Below, piece after piece: positions 43,900 to 53,930 of a stretch of DNA of 64,000 nucleotides (positions are counted from its first letter, which is position 1; every line of letters starts with the position of its first letter). The stretch spans positions 186,001-250,000 of the forward strand of contig NZ_ARVX01000001.1 in the NCBI RefSeq assembly GCF_000384375.1, read 5' to 3'. The stretch comes from Methylotenera versatilis 79 (GTDB lineage: Bacteria; Pseudomonadota; Gammaproteobacteria; Burkholderiales; Methylophilaceae). The notes beneath the pieces were generated by a model. The model saw nothing but the letters and a program-made list of their open reading frames with translations, had not been told where the DNA came from and made no database searches. Made by a program: the position numbers and the translations under genes.

Positions 43900-43948
43900 T
43901 GCGCCCTTGTCGAAAATTTAATAATCATAGTTTTCACAACAGTTTTCT

Positions 43949-44025
43949 GGTGATGTAGCTCAGCTGGTTAGAGCACAGGATTCATAATCCTGGGGTCGAG
44001 GGTTCAAGTCCCTCTTTCACCACCA
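43949..44025 (+). tRNA. tRNA-Met (anticodon CAU), integration site of the element
   Basis: A 77-base cloverleaf with encoded CCA. The anticodon stem CAGGA/TCCTG holds TTCATAA. The acceptor arms GGTGATG and TTTCACC pair with a T6-T67 mismatch and a G7-T66 wobble. The G1-C72 pair argues for elongator rather than initiator tRNA. The 39 bases from 43980 recur at 53856, so the 3' half belongs to the element's attachment repeat. Confidence 0.93.
43980..44018 (+). repeat. left attachment repeat (attL) of the element
   Basis: The 39 bases spanning the anticodon arm to the acceptor stem of tRNA-Met are identical to 53856-53894. After the shared part the left copy continues ACCACCA and the right copy CCACCA. 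Confidence 0.93.
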
Positions 44026-44031
44026 CTTGCA

Positions 44032-44063
44032 ACGCCCCTTTCGAGAGATTGGGGCGTTTTTCT
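44032..44063 (+). terminator. terminator after tRNA-Met
   Basis: ACGCCCC and GGGGCGT form a 7-bp stem with a 12-base loop, followed by a T run. It lies inside the element, so the element supplied the terminator for the rebuilt tRNA gene. Confidence 0.8.
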
Positions 44064-44080
44064 TTGTACTGATTTTCTCG

Positions 44081-44102
44081 ATTAGTAGCCACCTAGTAGC
44101 CA
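44081..44102 (+). repeat. left pair of probable integrase arm-type sites
   Basis: TAGTAGCCA occurs twice with an 11-base period. The whole 22-base unit is repeated exactly at 53705-53726, near the integrase gene. It lies 63 bases inside attL, suiting arm-type sites of a tyrosine recombinase. Confidence 0.65.
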
Positions 44103-44159
44103 TAAATGTATTATATCCCCAATTAGTTTATAAAAATATCAGTTAAAAAGGGTAAGCTC

Positions 44160-45581
44160 ATGTTGTGGACTACTGCTTTAAACCTGCCTTTAAAACAGTC
44201 AGAAGTTGACTTTTTGATACCCGAGTTAGATCACGACCTAAACTTATACGTTGACCCCCTACTTTTTCATCGAAGCAGCATACCTGAATATCAAGCTGTT
44301 CATGCATGTATCCATGAGTTTTTTAGCATATGTATAGATCAAGTAAAAAAAGGAAATATTGAGGTTGCCAGAAAAATGTTGGACTTTCCAGAGGTTCACG
44401 AAACTATGCTTGGTACTTCAAAATCTAGCCATAAGGGTAGAGGAATGGGCAAAGTTAGGGGAGGAATTATTTTAAATGAGATTATTGCAAACAAAGATGT
44501 TCAAACTAAGGGCATAACGCACATAGCTGAAATGCAACTCCTGATAGAAGGTGTTGGTTATGACTTAATAAGTGATATGTGCACAAATATTGCAAAACAT
44601 TTTTTTATAGAATATACCCAAAAACAATGCCAGCAATACGAAATTGAAATGGAAAAAAACCTTTGTCTTGAGCATGTTTTTAATTGGGAAGAATTAGAAT
44701 GGGACGACATTCATATTGATTTACCTACACATCCTGAATCTAAACATCCAATTTTATTGGTTCCTAGAACAGTTGTTCGTAGATTCCCAATATTTGATTA
44801 TGCAGGATTTTGGGACACTACTTATCGTTACATATTAAGAGCAAATATGCTTGAATCCGCAGTTCACGCAATCGGCAAAGAACCAAAAGTGTTGTGGAAG
44901 GATGTTAAAGAAAAGTATGAGTTTTCAAAAAAACATGTAGTTGAAGTCCTTCATGAGAATCCAGAGTTAAGGCATCAATATGTTGATCAATTCGAAAGGA
45001 AATTTAGTAGTGGGATAAGTCCTGTGGATTTATTCAAAATTCAAGGAAATGAGAATTTCAATACTCCAATTAATGATTTAATTACAGAACTTAAAACAAT
45101 TGAATCAGGTAATAAGGACGCAAAAAGGTATGAGAAACTAGTCTTAAGAATTTTAACTAGATTATTCTCCCCTCTACTTAACAACCCTGATCCACAAAGT
45201 TCATCTCATGATGGTAGGGAGATTATTGACATAACTTACTACAATGGAGCAAATGAAGGCTTTTGGAATGATGCAAAAATTCTTTGGCGTGCTACCACAA
45301 TTACTTTTGAATTAAAAAATATGGATGACCTTTCAAATGAGGAGTTTTTCCAAATAGCTGCTAGATTGAACGATATTCGTGGAATGATTGGTTTTTTGAT
45401 CAGTAGAAAAAAAGATCATCTTGATATTCAAAGAGCCTACAGACGATTGGATAAAGAACGAAAAGTAATTTTATGTCTGACAGATGAGGATTTGATAAAC
45501 ATGTTAGAAATGGACGCAAATGGTAAAAATGCAACGGAATATATACAAGCCATTTATAGAGAGTTCATAGATAAATCATAA
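44160..45581 (+). CDS. large uncharacterised protein with PD-(D/E)XK-like C-terminus (defence candidate)
   Basis: A 473-residue soluble protein with AAGGG 8 bases before its ATG. I do not recognise the N-terminal 300 residues; they begin LNLPLKQSEVDFLIPELDHD and include a Gly/Lys-rich stretch SSHKGRGMGKVRGG near residue 93. The C-terminal part (about 318-470) has the layout of a restriction-endonuclease fold: a helix (YEKLVLRILTRLFSPLL), DGREIIDITYYN with a candidate Asp, then TITFELKNMDD with the E-x-K triad end. It is the first gene inside the element, alone on its strand and isolated from the replication module. A single-gene anti-phage nuclease is the reading I favour; this is inference. 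Confidence 0.7.
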   Translation: MLWTTALNLPLKQSEVDFLIPELDHDLNLYVDPLLFHRSSIPEYQAVHACIHEFFSICIDQVKKGNIEVARKMLDFPEVHETMLGTSKSSHKGRGMGKVRGGIILNEIIANKDVQTKGITHIAEMQLLIEGVGYDLISDMCTNIAKHFFIEYTQKQCQQYEIEMEKNLCLEHVFNWEELEWDDIHIDLPTHPESKHPILLVPRTVVRRFPIFDYAGFWDTTYRYILRANMLESAVHAIGKEPKVLWKDVKEKYEFSKKHVVEVLHENPELRHQYVDQFERKFSSGISPVDLFKIQGNENFNTPINDLITELKTIESGNKDAKRYEKLVLRILTRLFSPLLNNPDPQSSSHDGREIIDITYYNGANEGFWNDAKILWRATTITFELKNMDDLSNEEFFQIAARLNDIRGMIGFLISRKKDHLDIQRAYRRLDKERKVILCLTDEDLINMLEMDANGKNATEYIQAIYREFIDKS

Positions 45582-45638
45582 AATTTTCAATAGTAATTAT
45601 TGTTCTTAAATGTCCTTTATATCTAGTCTAAAGGACGC

Positions 45639-45692
45639 GGTGACAATCCGCGCCGTGCGCCGCTGGCGCGTGCGCGCGGTGCGTTTGTCACC
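45639..45692. other. GC-rich hairpin after the HUH initiator gene, possible rolling-circle origin or strong terminator
   Basis: GGTGACAA and TTGTCACC bracket 38 bases that are almost pure G and C in AT-rich surroundings. The inside (CCGCGC...GCGCGG) pairs again. The structure starts 5 bases past the stop codon of the initiator gene. Its position suits either a terminator or a single- or double-strand origin acted on by that initiator; no T run follows on the gene's strand. Confidence 0.55.
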
Positions 45693-45696
45693 TTGC

Positions 45697-46647
45697 CTAA
45701 AACGGTGTTGGTAAAGAGTTATTTTCGTTCGGTAAATATCTAAAAAATATCATTGCTGCATTTCTGTCTGTAATAAATAAACTTTGATCTTTAGTCGCTT
45801 CTATCATTACAGCAGGATCAAAACGTACATAAAGCTCTTGTACTGCTTCTGCCAATGTCTCAGCGCGCATCCATTCACCGCTTGATTCTGGCAGCTTAAT
45901 GCTTCTAGGCACCCAGTAACGCTTACGATTAAATTGATGATGTTCTAGATAACTCTTAGTAATGTATTTAGAGATATAACGAGCGATGCCTACAGTCTGC
46001 TTAATTGGATCAGTAGAGCGTCTTTTCTGCTGCTTTAAGTCTACATTGCCAAGCGCTTCACTCCCTCGCTCATTGCCTTTACCACCTAGCGCAATCTGCC
46101 AACAACGTCTTAACAAGTCTGCTTTCACAAATCCATTGATGGCAGCATGAATATGATAGTGGTCTCCGCTTTTGTGTAGCTCTGGTACAGCAATATAATC
46201 AAACTTAGAGTCGGCAGCTACCAGCACACGCATAAATCGTTTCCAGGTGGCAATCACTTGATCGTAATCCTTGAGTAATCCTCTACTAGTTAAAGTTAAT
46301 AAACGGTCTGCACGAATCTCGATAGCAAAGTGACGTACTTTTCTGGCAGCACGAAAAGCGGCTTTTTCTCGATCACGCAAAATATCTGCTTCGTCACGTT
46401 CTTTTGGTGCGGTTCGTAAACCACGATCGCGATTAGCATTTACTAAACGGTTTAAAACATTACGATTCACCAATACTGCTTTTGCTTCAAATCCACCTTT
46501 TGTAAAAGGTTGAATTTTTAATCGCCACTGTAAATCTTGATCAAATATCGGCTGGTTAATGGTTTGACCCCACATATAGGGATGTTCAGGAGGCAATACA
46601 GCATGCTGATGGTCTTCTGTTAAGTCAAAGCGATCTAAATCAATCAT
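45697..46647 (-). CDS. HUH-family rolling-circle replication initiator (inovirus Gp2-like)
   Basis: A 316-residue endonuclease that would nick one strand at an origin. The HUH motif is DHYHIHAAING (about residue 166), and a catalytic-helix motif follows in IARYISKYITKSYLE (about 226), with two tyrosines. An N-terminal stretch rich in Arg (about 85-110) probably binds DNA. The family occurs in filamentous phages and in integrated elements with AlpA-like genes. Its ATG overlaps the stop of the helix-turn-helix gene by four bases (ATGA), so both are translated together. The element may therefore replicate by rolling circle after excision. Confidence 0.8.
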   Translation of the reverse strand: MIDLDRFDLTEDHQHAVLPPEHPYMWGQTINQPIFDQDLQWRLKIQPFTKGGFEAKAVLVNRNVLNRLVNANRDRGLRTAPKERDEADILRDREKAAFRAARKVRHFAIEIRADRLLTLTSRGLLKDYDQVIATWKRFMRVLVAADSKFDYIAVPELHKSGDHYHIHAAINGFVKADLLRRCWQIALGGKGNERGSEALGNVDLKQQKRRSTDPIKQTVGIARYISKYITKSYLEHHQFNRKRYWVPRSIKLPESSGEWMRAETLAEAVQELYVRFDPAVMIEATKDQSLFITDRNAAMIFFRYLPNENNSLPTPF

Positions 46648-46853
46648 TTCGCCACCTCTAATATAGATTGATGACGTTGACTATTAACATAGGCCTCTAG
46701 ATCATCTAGACGATAACGTACAGCACGAGAACCGATTTTGACAAATGGCACTCTTGCACCTGCCCATCGATCACGCTCTAAAAAAGCGATACTGACATTG
46801 AGAAATTTAGCAGCTTGCGGCGTGCTAAGTAAAACTGTTTGATGTTGCATCAT
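46644..46853 (-). CDS. small helix-turn-helix (excisionase-like) protein
   Basis: A 69-residue DNA-binding protein. LLSTPQAAKFLNVSIAFLER is a MerR/excisionase-type helix-turn-helix, followed by the wing VPFVKIGSRAVRYRLDDLEAYV. The start is the ATG at 46853, which has AGGAG 5 bases upstream; a longer frame to 46910 has no such support. It overlaps the initiator gene by four bases. It probably controls the initiator or excision. A second protein of this general type is encoded at 52202. Confidence 0.85.
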   Translation of the reverse strand: MMQHQTVLLSTPQAAKFLNVSIAFLERDRWAGARVPFVKIGSRAVRYRLDDLEAYVNSQRHQSILEVAK

Positions 46854-46973
46854 ATTGACTCCTAAAAATTGATATTGGAGACAATAGATTGATGCAGTAC
46901 GAGGTAGCAAAAAACTATCTAAAAATTCATAACCATTTCTTTATTTTCAGAAACAGTTTTAGTTTTTTACTAA

Positions 46974-47624
46974 CTACTTGATTTTTATAGGCCTTCCACC
47001 CTCTTTAATTTGATCTGGCGCAAAGGGTCTGGCCCATTTTTTAAAAGACTCAAGAGAAAAAACGTTGGGGTTTCCAAACTGCTTCATGATTGGATCATTG
47101 TAAATTTGTTCATAGGATTTGTTTGGGGAGATTTTCCAAAGCTTCTTAGCTAGTTCTAGACAGGCTACTCTATTTTTACGGCGTTCTGTTAAGTCGTTAT
47201 ACCAATTCTCATTTTCATCATCAGAAGAGTCATATTCAGAATTAGCAATCACTGTCTGAGACTTGTTATCCCAAATATATGGAACAGGTAAATATTCTTT
47301 TTCGCACCAGCTTATAACATGAGTTCGCCTTACATATATTGAATTCAAATATGACTTATCAAAAAAATCATTATTAATGCATGCTCTTAAAATTTTAAAA
47401 TGACGAAAATCAATTAACCAAGCTAATAATGAGTCATCAATCAAAATTACACGTTTTTTATTTCGCGCGGGCAACTGATTCCTGAAAATAGCCGCTGTAA
47501 TTCTATGGATATTTAACTTCACTTCCCCTGGAAGTTTATCAATTTCAGTTGACTCTGGATCGCTATTGGCCCACTTGTGGGCTAAATTCCAAACTGTTTG
47601 GTAATCATTGCTATCTAAATACAT
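46974..47624 (-). CDS. unknown protein, probable partner of the EVE-HNH protein
   Basis: A 216-residue soluble protein I do not recognise. It has an acidic low-complexity middle (EYDSSDDENENWYNDLTERR, about 130-149) followed by a helical part with VACLELAKKLWKIS and a basic end (GGRPIKIK). The gene starts 12 bases after the EVE-HNH gene ends on the same strand, so they are probably co-expressed. The C-terminal part resembles a helix-turn-helix-like arrangement, but not clearly enough to call. A regulatory or DNA-contacting partner is possible. Confidence 0.6.
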   Translation of the reverse strand: MYLDSNDYQTVWNLAHKWANSDPESTEIDKLPGEVKLNIHRITAAIFRNQLPARNKKRVILIDDSLLAWLIDFRHFKILRACINNDFFDKSYLNSIYVRRTHVISWCEKEYLPVPYIWDNKSQTVIANSEYDSSDDENENWYNDLTERRKNRVACLELAKKLWKISPNKSYEQIYNDPIMKQFGNPNVFSLESFKKWARPFAPDQIKEGGRPIKIK

Positions 47625-47636
47625 ATTTATCCAATG

Positions 47637-48569
47637 CTAATTTTTTAAGAAAACATGATTACGATGATATTCAAGATAGTTTGATTGATCAGGATTAAAT
47701 CTGCCCAGATTGATTACATTTTTAATGTTCCAAAGCTGTAAAATATCTGCATCTAGATTTTTGGATACGAGCATAACTCCATCATTGCTAAATGATATTA
47801 ACCCCTTATCAAATAAATAATCAATGTGCGGAGATAGCATTAAACCATTGTTACCATCTAACTTTTCTAAATCTGTAGACTTACACCACGGCTTAATATG
47901 ACTAGCTCTTAGGTAGCTTTTTTTAGAAACTCCAGTAATCCTACATGCTTTCTCAATCATCCCTACTCTAGATCTAAATAATCCCTGACCACGCCTAGCT
48001 TTAATCAACTGATGCTTTTCAGTTTCGGGGATATCTTTTCGATTAAGTAGTTTTTCCTCTGCTACATTTTGGTCGTCTTCATGACCAACTGTAAACTCAG
48101 CTCGATCTATTATCTTTTCAATTTGATCGCTTAAAAGAACATTAAGCACTTTACTCATAGTAATAGGCACACTAGCCAAATATACTTGGTTACCATTACC
48201 ATTTGCTTGCAGGGGTGAATACTTATCTGGCAGTGTAGGTAGTAATAAATCCATATGATTTGCTGGTTTAATTGGAGTTTCTAATTCCTGGAAGTCTACT
48301 TCTACAAACCACCCATCATCATTCCAATTTAAACCCGCATTTCCAAACTCATTAGGTTTGATTGAAGAAACTGCTTTATTTACTACGATGCCAATAGCCT
48401 TAATATAAGTATCGCAAAATGAATAAATAACATCTCCAGGCATAACTAGCGTCATATTGATATAAAACTGATTCCTTTGCCCATTAGAGTTCGTTTTCGG
48501 TGACCACATATAGCCGCCACCCACTTCATGCTTGTAAGTTTGATTTTGATTCACCCACCAATACTTCAT
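47637..48569 (-). CDS. EVE-like/HNH endonuclease, probable modification-dependent restriction enzyme
   Basis: A 310-residue protein of two parts. Residues 1-100 (KYWWVNQNQTY, GQRNQFYINM, VMPGDVIYSF, IKAIGIV) follow the pattern of EVE/PUA-like modules that read modified bases. Residues about 195-300 form an HNH nuclease of the HNH_2 type: LRASHIKPWCKS, GNNGLMLSPHIDYLFDKG, with the His-Asn-His set intact. Proteins joining a modified-base reader to HNH act as type IV restriction enzymes. It is divergent from the nuclease-helicase gene 91 bases away and followed by an unknown partner gene. Confidence 0.78.
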   Translation of the reverse strand: MKYWWVNQNQTYKHEVGGGYMWSPKTNSNGQRNQFYINMTLVMPGDVIYSFCDTYIKAIGIVVNKAVSSIKPNEFGNAGLNWNDDGWFVEVDFQELETPIKPANHMDLLLPTLPDKYSPLQANGNGNQVYLASVPITMSKVLNVLLSDQIEKIIDRAEFTVGHEDDQNVAEEKLLNRKDIPETEKHQLIKARRGQGLFRSRVGMIEKACRITGVSKKSYLRASHIKPWCKSTDLEKLDGNNGLMLSPHIDYLFDKGLISFSNDGVMLVSKNLDADILQLWNIKNVINLGRFNPDQSNYLEYHRNHVFLKN

Positions 48570-48660
48570 AAATAATCCCTCTTGTGTTTATTATTGATCT
48601 TTTGACTTATCATGTTGCGTAATAATGGCCGCAATGACTAAATAATAAAAGGTAATACTC

Positions 48661-50520
48661 ATGATTGTCTATTCAGGAACAAAACATACTTTCTCAGAGC
48701 ATGTTAAAAACAATGAAATTGCTGAAAAAATTCATGAATCCTTTATTTCCACAATGGGCCAAAAATCTAGCCCTGGTGAAATCAGATCATGGGAAAACTC
48801 CATGATGTACATGTGCAATGTATTAAATGATGATGAAATTCCTCACAATGCTGGTGTTGCGATTGAATATAAAATTCCAACTAGCTCTAAAAGAATTGAC
48901 TTCATTCTAACTGGCGCAAACCACTTGGAAGAAGAAATCGCCGTAATCATTGAGTTGAAACAATGGGATAAAATTCAAACAACAGATGAAGATGGAATTG
49001 TTGAAACATTCGTGGGTGGTGGTATAAGAAGAGTTACACACCCATCTTATCAAGCTTGGTCATATGCAAGGCTAATTAAAGATTTCTCTGAAATTGTTCA
49101 GCAAGATAAAATTGAAATCATACCTTGTGCTTATTTACATAACTACCATCAAGACGATGTAATCAGAGCCCCATTCTATGAGGATTATATTAATAAGGCG
49201 CCACTATTTTTAAGAAAAGAGTCTGGTGAGCTAACCAATTTTATTAAAAAGTTTATCAAATCAGGTGATCAAAAAAACACTCTGTTTAAAATCGACAATG
49301 GCAAAATTAAACCTTCTAAAAGTTTAGCAGACAGTCTTGATTCCTTGCTTAAGGGTAATCAAGAGTTTGTTATGATCGATGAGCAAAAAGTCGTTTTCGA
49401 ACAGGCATTAACGCTGGCTAAAAAGTCCAATAGTAAGAATAAAAAAGTCTTAATAGTTGAAGGCGGACCAGGGACGGGGAAGTCAGTGGTAGCAATCAAC
49501 CTGTTAGTGGCCATTACAAAACTCAAAAAACTTACTCAATACATTACTAGAAACTCCGCACCTAGGCAGGTTTACGAAAGCAAATTAGCGGGATCATTTA
49601 AAAAATCACATATTTCTAATTTATTTTCAGGATCGGGGAGCTATCACGATGTTAAATCTGGAATATTCGATGCACTAATTGTTGATGAGGCGCATCGTTT
49701 AAATGAAAAATCTGGCATGTTTAAAAACAAAGGGGAAAATCAGGTTAAAGAAATAATTCGAGCATCTAACTTTAGTGTGTTCTTTATAGATGAAGATCAA
49801 AAAGTAACCATTCATGATATTGGAGAAAAAGAAGAAATCAGGAAATGGGCCAGTCTAGAAGGTGCTGAAGTGTTTGAAACTGCCCTTACTTCACAATTTA
49901 GATGTAATGGTTCTGACGGTTATCTGGCTTGGCTTGATAATGCATTGCAGATTAAGGAAACAGCGAATACATCTATTGAAGATATTGAATATGACCTTAG
50001 AGTTTTCGACTCGCCTAGTGAATTAAGAAATACTATTTACGAGAAAAATAAGACTAATAATAAAGCTAGATTAGTTGCGGGTTATTGCTGGAAATGGCTA
50101 AGTAAAAATAATCCATTAATGGACGATATCGTATTCCCAGAATATGACTTCAGTGCAAAATGGAATTTATCTGACGATGGAATGTTATGGATTGTAAAAA
50201 AAGACTCTGTTAAGGAAATTGGTTGTATCCACACTTGTCAAGGTCTAGAGGTCGACTATATAGGCGTGATCATTGGGCCGGATTTAATTGTAAGAAATGG
50301 CCAAGTATTGACTGATCCGAGCAAAAGAGCAGCAGAAGACTCCTCTGTTAGAGGATATAAAAAACTAATGAAGGAAGATCCAACTTTTGCAGGACCACTA
50401 GTAGATAAAATTATTAAAAACACCTACAGAACGTTAATGACAAGAGGTCAAAAAGGTTGTTATGTTTACTCAACCGATGAAGAGACTCAAGAGTATTTTA
50501 GGCAGTTAATGCAAAGTTAA
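48661..50520 (+). CDS. DUF2075-type nuclease-helicase
   Basis: A 619-residue protein. Residues about 75-105 hold a PD-(D/E)XK nuclease core: KRIDFILTGA with the Asp, then AVIIELKQWDK with E-x-K. The helicase part starts with Walker A VEGGPGTGKSVVAI (about 272), has Walker B ALIVDEAHRLNEKSG (about 340), FFIDEDQKVTIHD, and ends with superfamily-1 motifs CIHTCQGLEVDYIGV and RTLMTRGQKGCYVY. Such one-chain nuclease-helicases are found in defence islands, and at least one (staphylococcal Nhi, from memory) blocks phages. It has its own ribosome site and faces away from the EVE-HNH gene. Confidence 0.85.
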   Translation: MIVYSGTKHTFSEHVKNNEIAEKIHESFISTMGQKSSPGEIRSWENSMMYMCNVLNDDEIPHNAGVAIEYKIPTSSKRIDFILTGANHLEEEIAVIIELKQWDKIQTTDEDGIVETFVGGGIRRVTHPSYQAWSYARLIKDFSEIVQQDKIEIIPCAYLHNYHQDDVIRAPFYEDYINKAPLFLRKESGELTNFIKKFIKSGDQKNTLFKIDNGKIKPSKSLADSLDSLLKGNQEFVMIDEQKVVFEQALTLAKKSNSKNKKVLIVEGGPGTGKSVVAINLLVAITKLKKLTQYITRNSAPRQVYESKLAGSFKKSHISNLFSGSGSYHDVKSGIFDALIVDEAHRLNEKSGMFKNKGENQVKEIIRASNFSVFFIDEDQKVTIHDIGEKEEIRKWASLEGAEVFETALTSQFRCNGSDGYLAWLDNALQIKETANTSIEDIEYDLRVFDSPSELRNTIYEKNKTNNKARLVAGYCWKWLSKNNPLMDDIVFPEYDFSAKWNLSDDGMLWIVKKDSVKEIGCIHTCQGLEVDYIGVIIGPDLIVRNGQVLTDPSKRAAEDSSVRGYKKLMKEDPTFAGPLVDKIIKNTYRTLMTRGQKGCYVYSTDEETQEYFRQLMQS

Positions 50521-50537
50521 AAATCACATATGTAACC

Positions 50538-51104
50538 TTAGGACATATGCATATACATCCAGTCACCCCCTATTTTTACACAAAAGGAATTGGGTACAAA
50601 TAAAGCGGACTTAGGAGCAAGGTCTTTAATCTCTTCCCCGTAATATAAAACCAAAAATAATAATAACGCAGCGACGGCATTTAAAAGATTTTTCAGGGTT
50701 GCTTCGTGGAAAAATTCAGATCTTTGATGCTTCACATTATTATTTGCCTTCCACCATAATGGAGATGTGTTTTCGGTTTCCCAGTTACTCCATGGTTTTA
50801 AAGTCAGTCCAAATCTTGGTACTAATACCTTAGCTTTATAGATTGCGGGGAATTCAGCCACAATTTCTCTTTGATAACTTTGTATTCCTTTTGCTCTGGA
50901 TTGTGGATCTATTCCCTTACATATCAACTTCGCTATCACATCTACTTCAGCGGCTGTCGTCATCAAAAGCCTGGCTATTTCTAGCGAGTAACACTTGTAA
51001 TTAATTTCTGATAGTTCAACCCATCTCGATAATTTTGAAATGTCTTCCTCAATGCTAAGAAAATAATTCCAATGCGAAAAGGTCTTGTGTTGTTCTATTC
51101 CCAA
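50538..51104 (-). CDS. helical, HEPN-like protein encoded after a MazG-like gene
   Basis: A 188-residue mostly helical protein. It begins at a TTG with AGGGG 7 bases upstream. The segment WWKANNNVKHQRSEFFHEAT and the hydrophobic helix LKNLLNAVAALLLFLVLYYG that follows are reminiscent of HEPN-type hypothetical proteins with an N-x-K-H-x-R motif. The standard catalytic R-x4-6-H of HEPN nucleases is not evident. It starts 28 bases after the MazG-like gene ends, same strand. The pairing suggests a shared job in nucleotide or RNA handling. The assignment is tentative. Confidence 0.5.
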   Translation of the reverse strand: MGIEQHKTFSHWNYFLSIEEDISKLSRWVELSEINYKCYSLEIARLLMTTAAEVDVIAKLICKGIDPQSRAKGIQSYQREIVAEFPAIYKAKVLVPRFGLTLKPWSNWETENTSPLWWKANNNVKHQRSEFFHEATLKNLLNAVAALLLFLVLYYGEEIKDLAPKSALFVPNSFCVKIGGDWMYMHMS

Positions 51105-51131
51105 TCAAATCCCCTAAATAAAATCTAAATT

Positions 51132-51461
51132 TTAAATCTCGTTATACTTTTTATTACTTCCTTTTGATTTTTCGATTGGATATTTGAGTGCATTTTTAGT
51201 AATCTTTTCTTGAATTATCTTGCTCACATCAAACCCGTATTTGTTAGCGATTAAAAATGCAAATGAAAACACATCGGCTAACTCATCTTTAACTTTAGCA
51301 ACATCTGCATCATCAACACTTTTCCAAAGAAACACCTCTAATAACTCACCCGCTTCAATATTAAGTGCTATAGCTAAATCTTTTGGATTATGAAATTGGT
51401 CCCAATCTCTATCATCTCTAAACTTGATTAGATGTTTTGTGATTTCTTGAATATCTGACAT
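51132..51461 (-). CDS. MazG-like nucleotide pyrophosphohydrolase
   Basis: A 109-residue protein of the all-alpha NTP pyrophosphatase group. The metal-binding set is visible: IEAGELLEVFLW for the first E-x-x-E pair and VKDELADVFSFAFLIANKYG for the second E-x-x-D pair, followed by KITKNALKYP. These enzymes hydrolyse NTPs or dNTPs to the monophosphate, often non-canonical ones. The small size fits the dCTPase/iMazG-like branch. It is the first gene of a two-gene unit with the helical protein downstream. Confidence 0.88.
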   Translation of the reverse strand: MSDIQEITKHLIKFRDDRDWDQFHNPKDLAIALNIEAGELLEVFLWKSVDDADVAKVKDELADVFSFAFLIANKYGFDVSKIIQEKITKNALKYPIEKSKGSNKKYNEI

Positions 51462-51583
51462 TTGATAATTTCCAATAATTTTTCATTTAACAACAATTTC
51501 AATTTAGTACCCGGATGTTTTCTATCAAAAGACAATTGAGAAATTCTTGCTTTTCTCGTCAACTGAATAGTAAGTTTTACCGG

Positions 51584-52108
51584 CTACTGGATATCTGTTG
51601 ACCATGTTGCCTCAAAATGCCGACGAGCTTTAGCATAATCATTTCCGCAAATTAGTGCATCTCGATCAGGATTATCTTTTTCGCAGCCTCTTGCTGGTTT
51701 ATATGACTCCGCCCAAGCTTCTTCTTTCTTAGACCGCTCATTTATTTTGTTTTCAATCGCAGCGCGCTTTTCAAAGTCTATTTGTTGTGCAGCTAGTTTT
51801 TGCTGTCTTAACTCCTCTGCTTGTAATCTAATTCGCTCTTCTGTTTTCTCTCTCATAGCCTCATTTCGCAACTGAATATTCCTCATTTGCTGCTGACTTT
51901 GTGCATTAATTATTTGCATTTGCTGATTAAAAATTTCAAGCGCTTGCCTAACTTGCCACTCGATATACGCCGCTCGTATGAACCAAGCTACCAAAATTGC
52001 TGCTAGCACTGCTAAGAAAATACTTATAGGATTAACTTCATTTTTCGGAGGGGCATCAAAAAATGTACGCTGCTGATAACTCTTAATATCTTCCTTATCT
52101 AACTGCAT
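51584..52108 (-). CDS. membrane-anchored coiled-coil protein, unknown
   Basis: A 174-residue protein. A membrane helix lies at about 27-46 (ISIFLAVLAAILVAWFIRAA) and a long Gln/Glu/Arg-rich coiled coil at about 58-130. The C-terminal domain has two cysteines (GCEKDNPDRDALICGNDYA) and could be disulfide-bonded if exported. The ATG at 52108 is chosen because AAGGAA lies 6 bases before; the ATG at 52114 overlaps that site. No family recognised. It lies between the MazG unit and the AlpA-like gene of the element. Confidence 0.65.
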   Translation of the reverse strand: MQLDKEDIKSYQQRTFFDAPPKNEVNPISIFLAVLAAILVAWFIRAAYIEWQVRQALEIFNQQMQIINAQSQQQMRNIQLRNEAMREKTEERIRLQAEELRQQKLAAQQIDFEKRAAIENKINERSKKEEAWAESYKPARGCEKDNPDRDALICGNDYAKARRHFEATWSTDIQ

Positions 52109-52201
52109 AATCATTTCCTTATTTTTATTAAATTAAATAATACTGCTAATTAGGTCTAAATTGATATATCGAAGTTACCAGAGCGTTTTTAACTCATGCA
52201 A

Positions 52202-52393
52202 TCAAGCTAAATTATTTCCTTCCCTATCTGAAATCCATTGGTTTATTACACTTAACCTCCAAACACTCGTTCTTTCAGTTAACTTAATTTGTTTTGGAAA
52301 TTTATCTTCTTTCATCAACTTGTATATAGTGCTTCTAGCTATTCCCAACATCACAGTCAATTCTTTAATACGGATGTAGCGATCTTCTAACAT
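52202..52393 (-). CDS. AlpA-family regulator/excisionase
   Basis: A 63-residue DNA-binding protein: YIRIKELTVMLGIARSTIYK is an AlpA-type helix-turn-helix, followed by the wing FPKQIKLTERTSVWRLSVIN and WISDRE. AlpA relatives activate prophage excision genes or act as directionality factors. It lies 37 bases downstream of the integrase gene on the same strand, as is common. Confidence 0.9.
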   Translation of the reverse strand: MLEDRYIRIKELTVMLGIARSTIYKLMKEDKFPKQIKLTERTSVWRLSVINQWISDREGNNLA

Positions 52394-52430
52394 AGTTAAA
52401 CCTCCTAAATTTTAGAATGTGAAATTGATA

Positions 52431-53669
52431 TCAAGCACCGATACTCTTTTGAAGGAAAACAATAGGAGCACTTTCTTTACGTCCCATACAAATCAGCATG
52501 TAGTCTGTGATTTTTTGCATAGGGGCACGTAACCTCTCCACATCAGTGATAATGTATCCAGCGGTGACATCATTCGTCATTTTATGATTAAGTAATCTTT
52601 TTAGAGAGTACGCAGAAATATCTAAGCTTTCGGCAATCGTAATAAATGTGCGCCTAAGGTCATGCGTACTAAAATTAACACCGCTTTCATTTACTACTTT
52701 TGCAATCTGCTTTTTAGGGTCAACTAAGTAACCAATATTCGTCTCGTTTGGGAATACATATTTAGTTTTGGCTTCAGCTTTCCTTTTTGTCAGTAAATCA
52801 AACAAAAAGTCTGTTAATGGCAACACGTGATCTGTGTGATTTTTGGTGTCTTTAATCACGAAAGTTTTATCTTTTAGATCGACTCGATTCCAAGTTAACT
52901 TAGCGGCTTCATTTCGCCTTAAGCCTGTCATTATTACAAATAATAAAAAATCTCTTACAACTTCACGATTAGGAGCAATCGAATCGTTTGATAAACTCAT
53001 GACAGCACGATACCAAGGGGCTAAATCATAGTGTTTAATAAGCGTGTTTTTTCTGACTGGACGATGCCAAGCACGCAACTGGGTAATTCTAACAACAGGG
53101 TTGTGTCTAAAGATTGAGTCGCCGTTACTATCCTCATATTTCATAATGGCATAGTTCATGACCGCTCTAAAGTTGCGCATGGTCTTATTAGCCTGAGATG
53201 TGCTTGTTTTACCTATCTTACGAAACTTCAGCTCAACCATATCTTTAGATATTTCTATGGCTGGTTTATTCATCCAGTCAGAAAGATAAAATTCAAAGGT
53301 ATGTCGATAGTCTTGGATAGTACTGGGCTGTAAATTGCCTCGCGCTTCAATATAGTTTTCTAACACTTCGGCTAGTGTAACTAGTTTGGCTTTTCTGGCT
53401 TTTTCTTCATCATGTGGATTTTTACCTCTAGATATTTCAGCCAAATAAGATTTTGCTTGTGATCGTGCTTCATCTAGCGATACAACGTTATGTCTTGCAA
53501 TAGATTTTCTGATCGTTTTACTGTGTAGTTTAGCCTCAGCAAAATAAACCTTAGCTGACTTTCCAACCCTTAATCCAAAACCTAAAAGTTCTGAGTCACG
53601 ATAAAAGACTTGACCTGATTTTTCGAATGCAACTTTATCAACAAATGATTTAGTTAGTTTATGCAACAT
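52431..53669 (-). CDS. tyrosine recombinase (site-specific integrase)
   Basis: A 412-residue phage-type integrase. The N-terminal part (RDSELLGFGLRVGKSAKVYF) is the DUF4102-like arm-binding domain. The core-binding domain follows (about 98-190). The catalytic set is complete: Arg in MTGLRRNEAAKLTW, Lys in IKDTKNHTDHVLPL, His-x-x-Arg in STHDLRRTFI, His in LLNHKMTND and Tyr in AGYIITD. It lies next to the right att copy, so it integrated this element in tRNA-Met. Long repeats of TAGTAGCCA at both ends would serve as its arm sites. Confidence 0.95.
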   Translation of the reverse strand: MLHKLTKSFVDKVAFEKSGQVFYRDSELLGFGLRVGKSAKVYFAEAKLHSKTIRKSIARHNVVSLDEARSQAKSYLAEISRGKNPHDEEKARKAKLVTLAEVLENYIEARGNLQPSTIQDYRHTFEFYLSDWMNKPAIEISKDMVELKFRKIGKTSTSQANKTMRNFRAVMNYAIMKYEDSNGDSIFRHNPVVRITQLRAWHRPVRKNTLIKHYDLAPWYRAVMSLSNDSIAPNREVVRDFLLFVIMTGLRRNEAAKLTWNRVDLKDKTFVIKDTKNHTDHVLPLTDFLFDLLTKRKAEAKTKYVFPNETNIGYLVDPKKQIAKVVNESGVNFSTHDLRRTFITIAESLDISAYSLKRLLNHKMTNDVTAGYIITDVERLRAPMQKITDYMLICMGRKESAPIVFLQKSIGA

Positions 53670-53704
53670 TTTTATACTCCGTTCTACTATTTTCTCGTTA
53701 AAAA

Positions 53705-53726
53705 ATTAGTAGCCACCTAGTAGCCA
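53705..53726 (+). repeat. right pair of probable integrase arm-type sites
   Basis: Exact copy of 44081-44102, with two TAGTAGCCA units 11 bases apart. It lies 35 bases before the integrase start codon, so binding could also repress the integrase gene. Confidence 0.65.
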
Positions 53727-53783
53727 AAATCGAGAAAAGTACTTAAAACGCAGTATAACTATGTAAAATTTGGTAGCAATCGT

Positions 53784-53794
53784 TTGGCTACTAA
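53784..53794 (-). repeat. inverted copy of the integrase arm-type unit
   Basis: TTGGCTACTAA is the reverse complement of TTAGTAGCCAA. It lies between the direct pair and attR. Confidence 0.5.
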
Positions 53795-53855
53795 GTTAAT
53801 GTTTATTAAAAGAAAAAAGCACAATTTCAATTACAAAACAAATACTTAGAGTCAA

Positions 53856-53894
53856 ATTCATAATCCTGGGGTCGAGGGTTCAAGTCCCTCTTTC
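53856..53894 (+). repeat. right attachment repeat (attR), 3' half of tRNA-Met
   Basis: Identical to 43980-44018. There is no D-arm before it, so it is a tRNA remnant and not a gene. It ends CCCACCA, one base shorter than the functional copy. Confidence 0.93.
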
Positions 53895-53904
53895 CCACCA
53901 ATTC

Positions 53905-53930
53905 AAGGCCATATCTTCGGATATGGCCTT
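53905..53930 (+). terminator. original tRNA-Met terminator, now after attR
   Basis: AAGGCCATATC-TTCG-GATATGGCCTT is an 11-bp stem with a stable UUCG loop, followed by a T-rich stretch. Its place right after the tRNA remnant suggests it ended the tRNA transcript before integration. Confidence 0.85.

Follow-up and report, generated by a model that had tools for sequence, protein, structure and literature searches.

What is the 9.9-kb segment enclosed by two identical repeats in the genome of Methylotenera versatilis 79, and what might its genes do for the segment and for its host? We analysed a window of 64,000 nucleotides (contig NZ_ARVX01000001.1, positions 186,001 to 250,000), whose internal coordinates are used throughout, and in which an initial annotation had proposed a mobile unit combining a rolling-circle module with anti-phage genes as cargo. 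The attachment (att) sites, the catalytic motifs and the variation of cargo among related elements all support this proposal, and we assign a probability of approximately 0.82 to the segment being a mobile element that integrates, replicates by rolling circle and carries exchangeable anti-phage genes.

The element is bounded by 39-bp direct repeats, 100% identical to each other, that delimit it essentially as initially annotated. The left copy lies within the 3' half of an intact tRNA-Met(CAT) gene, and the right copy closes a broken 3' half of a tRNA, which reads TTTCCCACCA in place of TTTCACCACCA and is followed by a terminator-like hairpin. Pairs of the motif TAGTAGCCA near both ends (44083/44094 and 53707/53718) constitute likely integrase arm sites, and the left of these sites (44081-44105) is also present in an element of Methylophilus methylotrophus (locus L052). 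The left junction (43946-44100) shows 85-86% similarity to L052 and to a remnant in Methylophilus sp. 14 (L053), and the G+C content of the enclosed DNA is 34-37% in most 1-kb windows, as opposed to 38-45% in the flanks. In the relative G009 (locus L124), AATTCAAGGCCACATCTTCGGATGTGGCC, a near-exact match to the sequence beyond the right repeat, directly follows an intact tRNA-Met. This junction indicates that the tRNA once read straight into the right-flank sequence and that the replacement 3' end was brought by the element, from which both the 3' part and the terminator of the present tRNA-Met derive. Given that the tRNA-Met of G009 is not beside ychF, it provides junction evidence and does not count as an insert-free allele of this locus; on this evidence, the segment is not ancestral. 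The arrangement at both ends shows that the element inserted site-specifically into the tRNA-Met 3' half and restored the tRNA.

Read from the right end, the backbone comprises the integrase, the AlpA-type protein and a 176-amino-acid (aa) protein, and then a 216-aa protein, an HTH_17 protein, an HUH replication initiator (Rep) and a putative origin. All backbone open reading frames (ORFs) are open and contain their catalytic motifs, and the att cores and arm-type sites are intact. The integrase presents the expected catalytic residues (R248, HxxR at 336-339 and Y372), and Rep harbors an HYH motif (163-165) together with Y224 and Y228, as in two-tyrosine HUH proteins, its phrog_3419 match being to a rolling-circle initiator family. 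A tyrosine integrase, att repeats at a tRNA and a Rep with HUH and tyrosine motifs are jointly the features of an integrative element with an HUH replication module. Just downstream of rep lies a GC hairpin (fold z = -5.9, a stability reached by none of 200 shuffled sequences) in an origin region that is conserved in L052 and L053; homology stops at about window position 45606, and a different gene set follows in each. The HTH_17 gene (46644-46910) has homologues in L052, L056 and L062-L066, and the 176-aa protein, whose N-terminus matches a 127-aa protein of L052 (4e-7 in a two-sequence comparison), is probably also a backbone gene. Profile scans of the main ORFs of the element with Pfam, PHROG, PADLOC and NCBIfam, in which below-cut-off Pfam matches (Flu_NS2, Flavi_capsid and similar) were discarded as noise, recognised no virion or conjugation gene. 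Profiles, motifs and fold hence confirmed the integrase, AlpA-like gene, HUH initiator and GC hairpin of the initial annotation, and the reported lack of virion and conjugation genes held within the scanned ORFs.

Relatives were identified in a sample of genomes by searches with the 216-aa family and the integrase. In L052, the same tRNA-Met holds an element of ~6.6 kb, which has the origin region in common with the window element and shows identities to the window proteins of 71% for the integrase, 71% for Rep, 69% for the HTH protein and 26% for the 216-aa protein; as cargo it carries a gene of the GmrSD/HEC-06 type (1.5e-222) and TumE, the latter accompanied by an HTH partner. The L053 remnant has kept only the tRNA junction, the origin and the end of rep, and carries AriA- and AriB-like genes (PARIS). 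Cargo thus differs among elements that share integrase and Rep with the one studied here, and both possibilities that the initial annotation had named as contrary to it, an ancestral segment and invariant cargo, are contradicted. Gene order shared with Methylophilus also points to Methylophilaceae as the family of the host. Relatives in other members of the order present either integrase, 216-aa protein, in some cases the HTH protein, and Rep, or 216-aa protein, Rep and a second integrase type. They are located at tRNA-Lys, tRNA-Thr, tRNA-Arg and tRNA-Phe, and exact tRNA repeats of 45-59 bp were found in L052, L056, L062, L064, L104 and L108. Their cargo includes Cas9 (L056), type II restriction (REase_II, L063), PDC-S06 (L101), type III methylase and restriction matches (L105) and MTase_II and CARF matches (L103). 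The module order recurs across elements at several tRNAs, for which reason we discarded the reading of the segment as what is left of one prophage.

Homologues of the 216-aa protein precede HUH Reps in ~14 related elements, and their distribution identifies it as core to the element family, and not as cargo. Pfam and PHROG scans and a PDB sequence search with its family returned no convincing match, and an AlphaFold model built from two sequences (predicted local distance difference test score, pLDDT, of 48) was too poor for fold searching; the protein probably binds DNA. At least three Rep types occur in the family: the first is inovirus G2P-like, the second P2 gpA-like (PF05840), and the third matches no Pfam family. 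The 216-aa protein of the window falls among those of gpA-type elements (support 99/99), whereas the nearest relatives of the integrase and Rep are in L052, indicating that modules have been exchanged. The initial annotation had listed three unknown proteins as passengers; the 188-aa protein does resemble cargo, but the 216-aa protein is conserved backbone, and the 176-aa protein probably belongs there too.

Several additional observations concern the relatives and the integration site. The element in L056 (1560-11734), a family relative, spans 10.2 kb at tRNA-Lys and carries Cas9 (7.7e-62), Cas1- and Cas2-like ORFs and a repeat array, and is apparently a mobile CRISPR-Cas9. A second element of the genome under study (G000:C1 ~588085-593971; L080 6086-11971) is inserted at tRNA-Phe and spans ~5.8 kb; its 87-bp repeat is perfect, and besides an integrase of its own it encodes a third-type Rep and a distant homologue of the 216-aa protein. 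Some sister elements (L102 2882-7825 and L064 4050-5423) carry large cargo genes for proteins of 974, 663 and 457 aa, the first two without PADLOC match, and these are possible new defence genes. The tRNA-Met beside ychF is a hotspot that holds unrelated integrases, primase-type elements and restriction genes in L054, L055, L070 and L121; the element at this tRNA in L054 lacks the integrase of the window element, and its AlpA homologue (1151-1324), 72% identical to that of the window, is either a remnant or a shared regulator.

At least three nuclease-type proteins, a helicase and a MazG-like enzyme had been reported aboard the element, and all of them were recovered (Table 1). The similarity of the EVE-HNH protein to VcaM4I, which has been crystallised (PDB 6yex; PMC7897488), extends over residues 1-309, its full length, and the two proteins are alike in length, domain order and the base-pocket residues P24, W82 and Y130, but differ at many residues. 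These data identify the gene as a VcaM4I-type modification-dependent nuclease, expected to cut DNA containing 5-methylcytosine (5mC) or 5-hydroxymethylcytosine (5hmC). The proposal of anti-phage cargo is supported, but this nuclease is of a characterised type and not new. The PDC-M36A match spans the length of the 473-aa protein on the tRNA side, which has a PD-(D/E)XK-like C-terminal motif (DIT...FELK), no phage match and no convincing hit in a PDB sequence search. The 188-aa protein, for which the PDB search likewise returned nothing convincing, contains one RSEFFH motif, weakly suggestive of a possible HEPN-like protein.

The nuclease-helicase presents D80...ELK, Walker A and DEAH motifs, and a PDB sequence search with it yielded nothing convincing. 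Its N-terminal half matches PADLOC PDC-S41, over only ~270 of its 619 residues, and this is a single-gene model of which the MazG partner is no part; no paper in the literature searched uses the names PDC-M36 or PDC-S41. Genes for MazG-like and DUF2075 nuclease-helicase proteins adjoin in 9 of 13 other loci from Pseudomonadota, Bacteroidota, Bacillota and one haloarchaeon. In particular, the two are neighbours in each of the five Pseudomonadota genomes sampled that encode a close homologue of the nuclease-helicase, and in four of the eight plasmid loci examined, namely those from Marivirga, Halalkalicoccus, Priestia and Halomonas. We estimate this overall frequency to be far above expectation for genes that occur only one or a few times in a genome. 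In the window, the two genes are on opposite strands with the 188-aa gene between them. No description joining them was found in the literature searched, and we consider the pair a candidate two-gene defence module and the most novel part of the element.

Table 1. Features of the integrative element and its tRNA-Met site, in window coordinates
Feature	Position	Strand	Evidence
tRNA-Met(CAT), integration site, intact	43949..44025	+	ARAGORN
attL core, 39-bp direct repeat	43980..44018	+	repeat comparison
Likely integrase arm-type site, TAGTAGCCA x2, spacing 11 bp	44081..44105	+	96% identical copy at opposite end
PDC-M36A-like protein, 473 aa, tRNA-side cargo	44160..45581	+	PADLOC PDC-M36A 2.5e-61; phrog_27295 1.3e-47
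Putative rolling-circle origin: GC hairpin and GTCCTTTA...TAAAGGAC inverted repeat	45606..45696	-	kept in L052/L053
HUH rolling-circle replication initiator, inovirus G2P-like	45697..46647	-	PF23343 6.4e-10; phrog_3419 5.8e-42
HTH_17/excisionase-like DNA-binding protein adjoining Rep (core)	46644..46910	-	PF12728 7.1e-8
216-aa core protein, helical, basic GRPxK tail	46974..47624	-	family members encoded ahead of HUH Reps
EVE-HNH modification-dependent restriction endonuclease, VcaM4I type	47637..48569	-	PDB 6yex 1.7e-102; HNH_2 4.8e-11
PD-(D/E)XK nuclease fused to Schlafen-group-3 (DUF2075) helicase	48661..50520	+	PF09848 1.6e-103
188-aa unknown cargo protein	50538..51104	-	phrog_19461 1.4e-9
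MazG-like nucleotide pyrophosphohydrolase	51132..51461	-	PF12643 1.2e-19
176-aa protein, N-terminal membrane segment and coiled coil	51584..52114	-	N-terminal match to L052 127-aa protein
AlpA-type excisionase/regulator	52202..52393	-	phrog_2790 2.7e-13
Tyrosine integrase	52431..53669	-	PF00589 1.3e-16; PF13356 (Arm-DNA-bind_3)
Second likely integrase arm-type site	53705..53729	+	repeat comparison and motif pairs
attR core, 39-bp direct repeat; then former tRNA terminator (~53899-53930)	53856..53894	+	

In the mechanism that we propose, the integrase and AlpA would excise the element as a circle, and Rep would nick the conserved hairpin/inverted-repeat region and copy that circle, with the 216-aa and HTH_17 proteins beside it acting as core replication or control factors that accompany several Rep families. 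The copies would travel by means of an outside helper, most likely a DNA-packaging phage and less likely a conjugation system. The EVE-HNH protein, directed against 5mC/5hmC DNA, the PDC-M36A-like nuclease and the MazG-DUF2075 pair would shield the host, and hence the element, from other phages.

Several points weigh against this interpretation. The anatomy of the element can be read directly from its sequence, but excision, copying, transfer and defence are inferred from it. An insert-free allele with exactly the same flanks was not found among the relatives examined; elsewhere in the genus, ychF and the right-hand short-chain dehydrogenase/reductase gene are kilobases apart or on separate contigs, and the tRNA-Met site is often held by other elements. 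The defence role of PDC-M36A is no more than a PADLOC candidate, and a single-sequence AlphaFold model of the PDC-M36A-like protein (pLDDT 37.5) was too poor for fold searching. Profile searches of the host genome for terminase (phrog_2), Zot and VirB4 gave no convincing match, other helper families not having been searched, and pattern scans of IMG/VR did not recover the integrase, Rep or 216-aa family. Weak phrog_2 matches in the host genome (1.6e-4 and 2.0e-4), one of them to the helicase of the element itself, were rejected as P-loop matches. IMG/VR scans with the nuclease-helicase and PDC-M36A patterns also returned no relatives.

The alternative that best withstands these data is a special case of the integrative element proposed here, to which we grant even odds: a true phage satellite, induced and packaged by a helper, copied by rolling circle and excluding rival phages through its cargo, in the manner of PICMIs and I55. 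PICMI satellites are very small and combine int, alpA and their own replication gene with few other genes (PMC10803314). The element shares this gene logic, as well as cargo and rolling-circle-like replication, but PICMIs encode a DUF3987/DUF5906 primase in place of an HUH Rep (no primase match was obtained in the element), integrate next to fis instead of tRNA-Met, and reside in Vibrionaceae and not Methylophilaceae. The Pseudomonas tmRNA islands I23, I44 and I55 carry an integrase, AlpA, an inovirus Gp2-like protein and defence cargo without transfer genes, and a jumbo phage transduces I55 (PMC12595487). Their logic is also recognisable here in the tyrosine integrase, AlpA (phrog_2790), Gp2-like Rep (PF23343 and an Inoviridae match), HTH protein, swapped defence cargo and lack of recognised transfer genes. 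They differ in using tmRNA with a 14-bp repeat in place of tRNA-Met with a 39-bp repeat, in spanning 23-55 kb instead of 9.9 kb and in gene order; the 216-aa core protein beside Rep is a feature of the window element, and no Pfam or NCBIfam match to YqaJ or RadC, core genes of the I55 group, was detected among its scanned ORFs. Since the defining features tested fail (primase and fis; tmRNA and YqaJ/RadC), the element resembles both classes but belongs to neither. The absence of a recognised transfer gene of its own fits a satellite lifestyle; the IMG/VR and terminase results argue against it, and neither a helper nor a pac/cos site was identified.

It appears unlikely that the element derives from an inovirus, in which case a filamentous phage would have supplied Rep and the hairpin, and a helper inovirus would package single-stranded copies. 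The GC hairpin would suit this origin, and the best phage match of Rep is an Inoviridae genome, the inovirus-type matches being weak only and a PDB sequence search with Rep yielding nothing convincing. Furthermore, a family relative has what appears to be an inovirus prophage at its tmRNA (L058 4393-14036), which encodes a homologous Rep (~31% identity) alongside ORFs resembling Zot and secretin. The element has in common with inoviruses the Rep family, but no coat, adsorption, Zot or secretin genes were recognised among its ORFs and no convincing Zot in the host genome, and the occurrence of P2 gpA-type Reps in sister elements suggests that Rep was swapped in.

HUH initiators and relaxases have a common chemistry, and some rolling-circle replicons are mobilised by integrative and conjugative elements, so that Rep might double as a relaxase and the circle be moved by a conjugation system, as in integrative mobilisable elements. 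We deem this improbable, given that no relaxase family or coupling protein was matched in the scanned ORFs and no convincing VirB4 in the host genome. It is similarly doubtful that the element is a decaying island now stuck as a store of defence genes, which would agree with the crowding of this tRNA-Met site and the decay of related elements there (L053 and L055), but not with the intact backbone ORFs, catalytic motifs, att cores and arm-type sites.

Taking the segment as an integrative rolling-circle element, we tentatively advance a broader proposal whose two parts, considered jointly, we hold to be somewhat less than evenly probable. The element may represent an undescribed family of mobile elements in Betaproteobacteria, integrating at tRNAs, replicating by rolling circle, built on an integrase, the 216-aa protein and an exchangeable HUH Rep, and operating as defence shuttles or satellites; and the MazG-like and PD-(D/E)XK-DUF2075 proteins may form a new two-gene anti-phage system, conserved in bacteria and archaea, that combines nucleotide hydrolysis with DNA degradation. 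If this holds true, a family of very small elements carrying defence genes would be added, one that pattern scans of viral contigs did not recover and whose replication gene and att site set it apart from the published satellite groups considered above. HUH initiators of different types would then swap behind one conserved partner gene, and the MazG-like protein and DUF2075 nuclease-helicase would provide a testable candidate immune pair in both bacteria and archaea.

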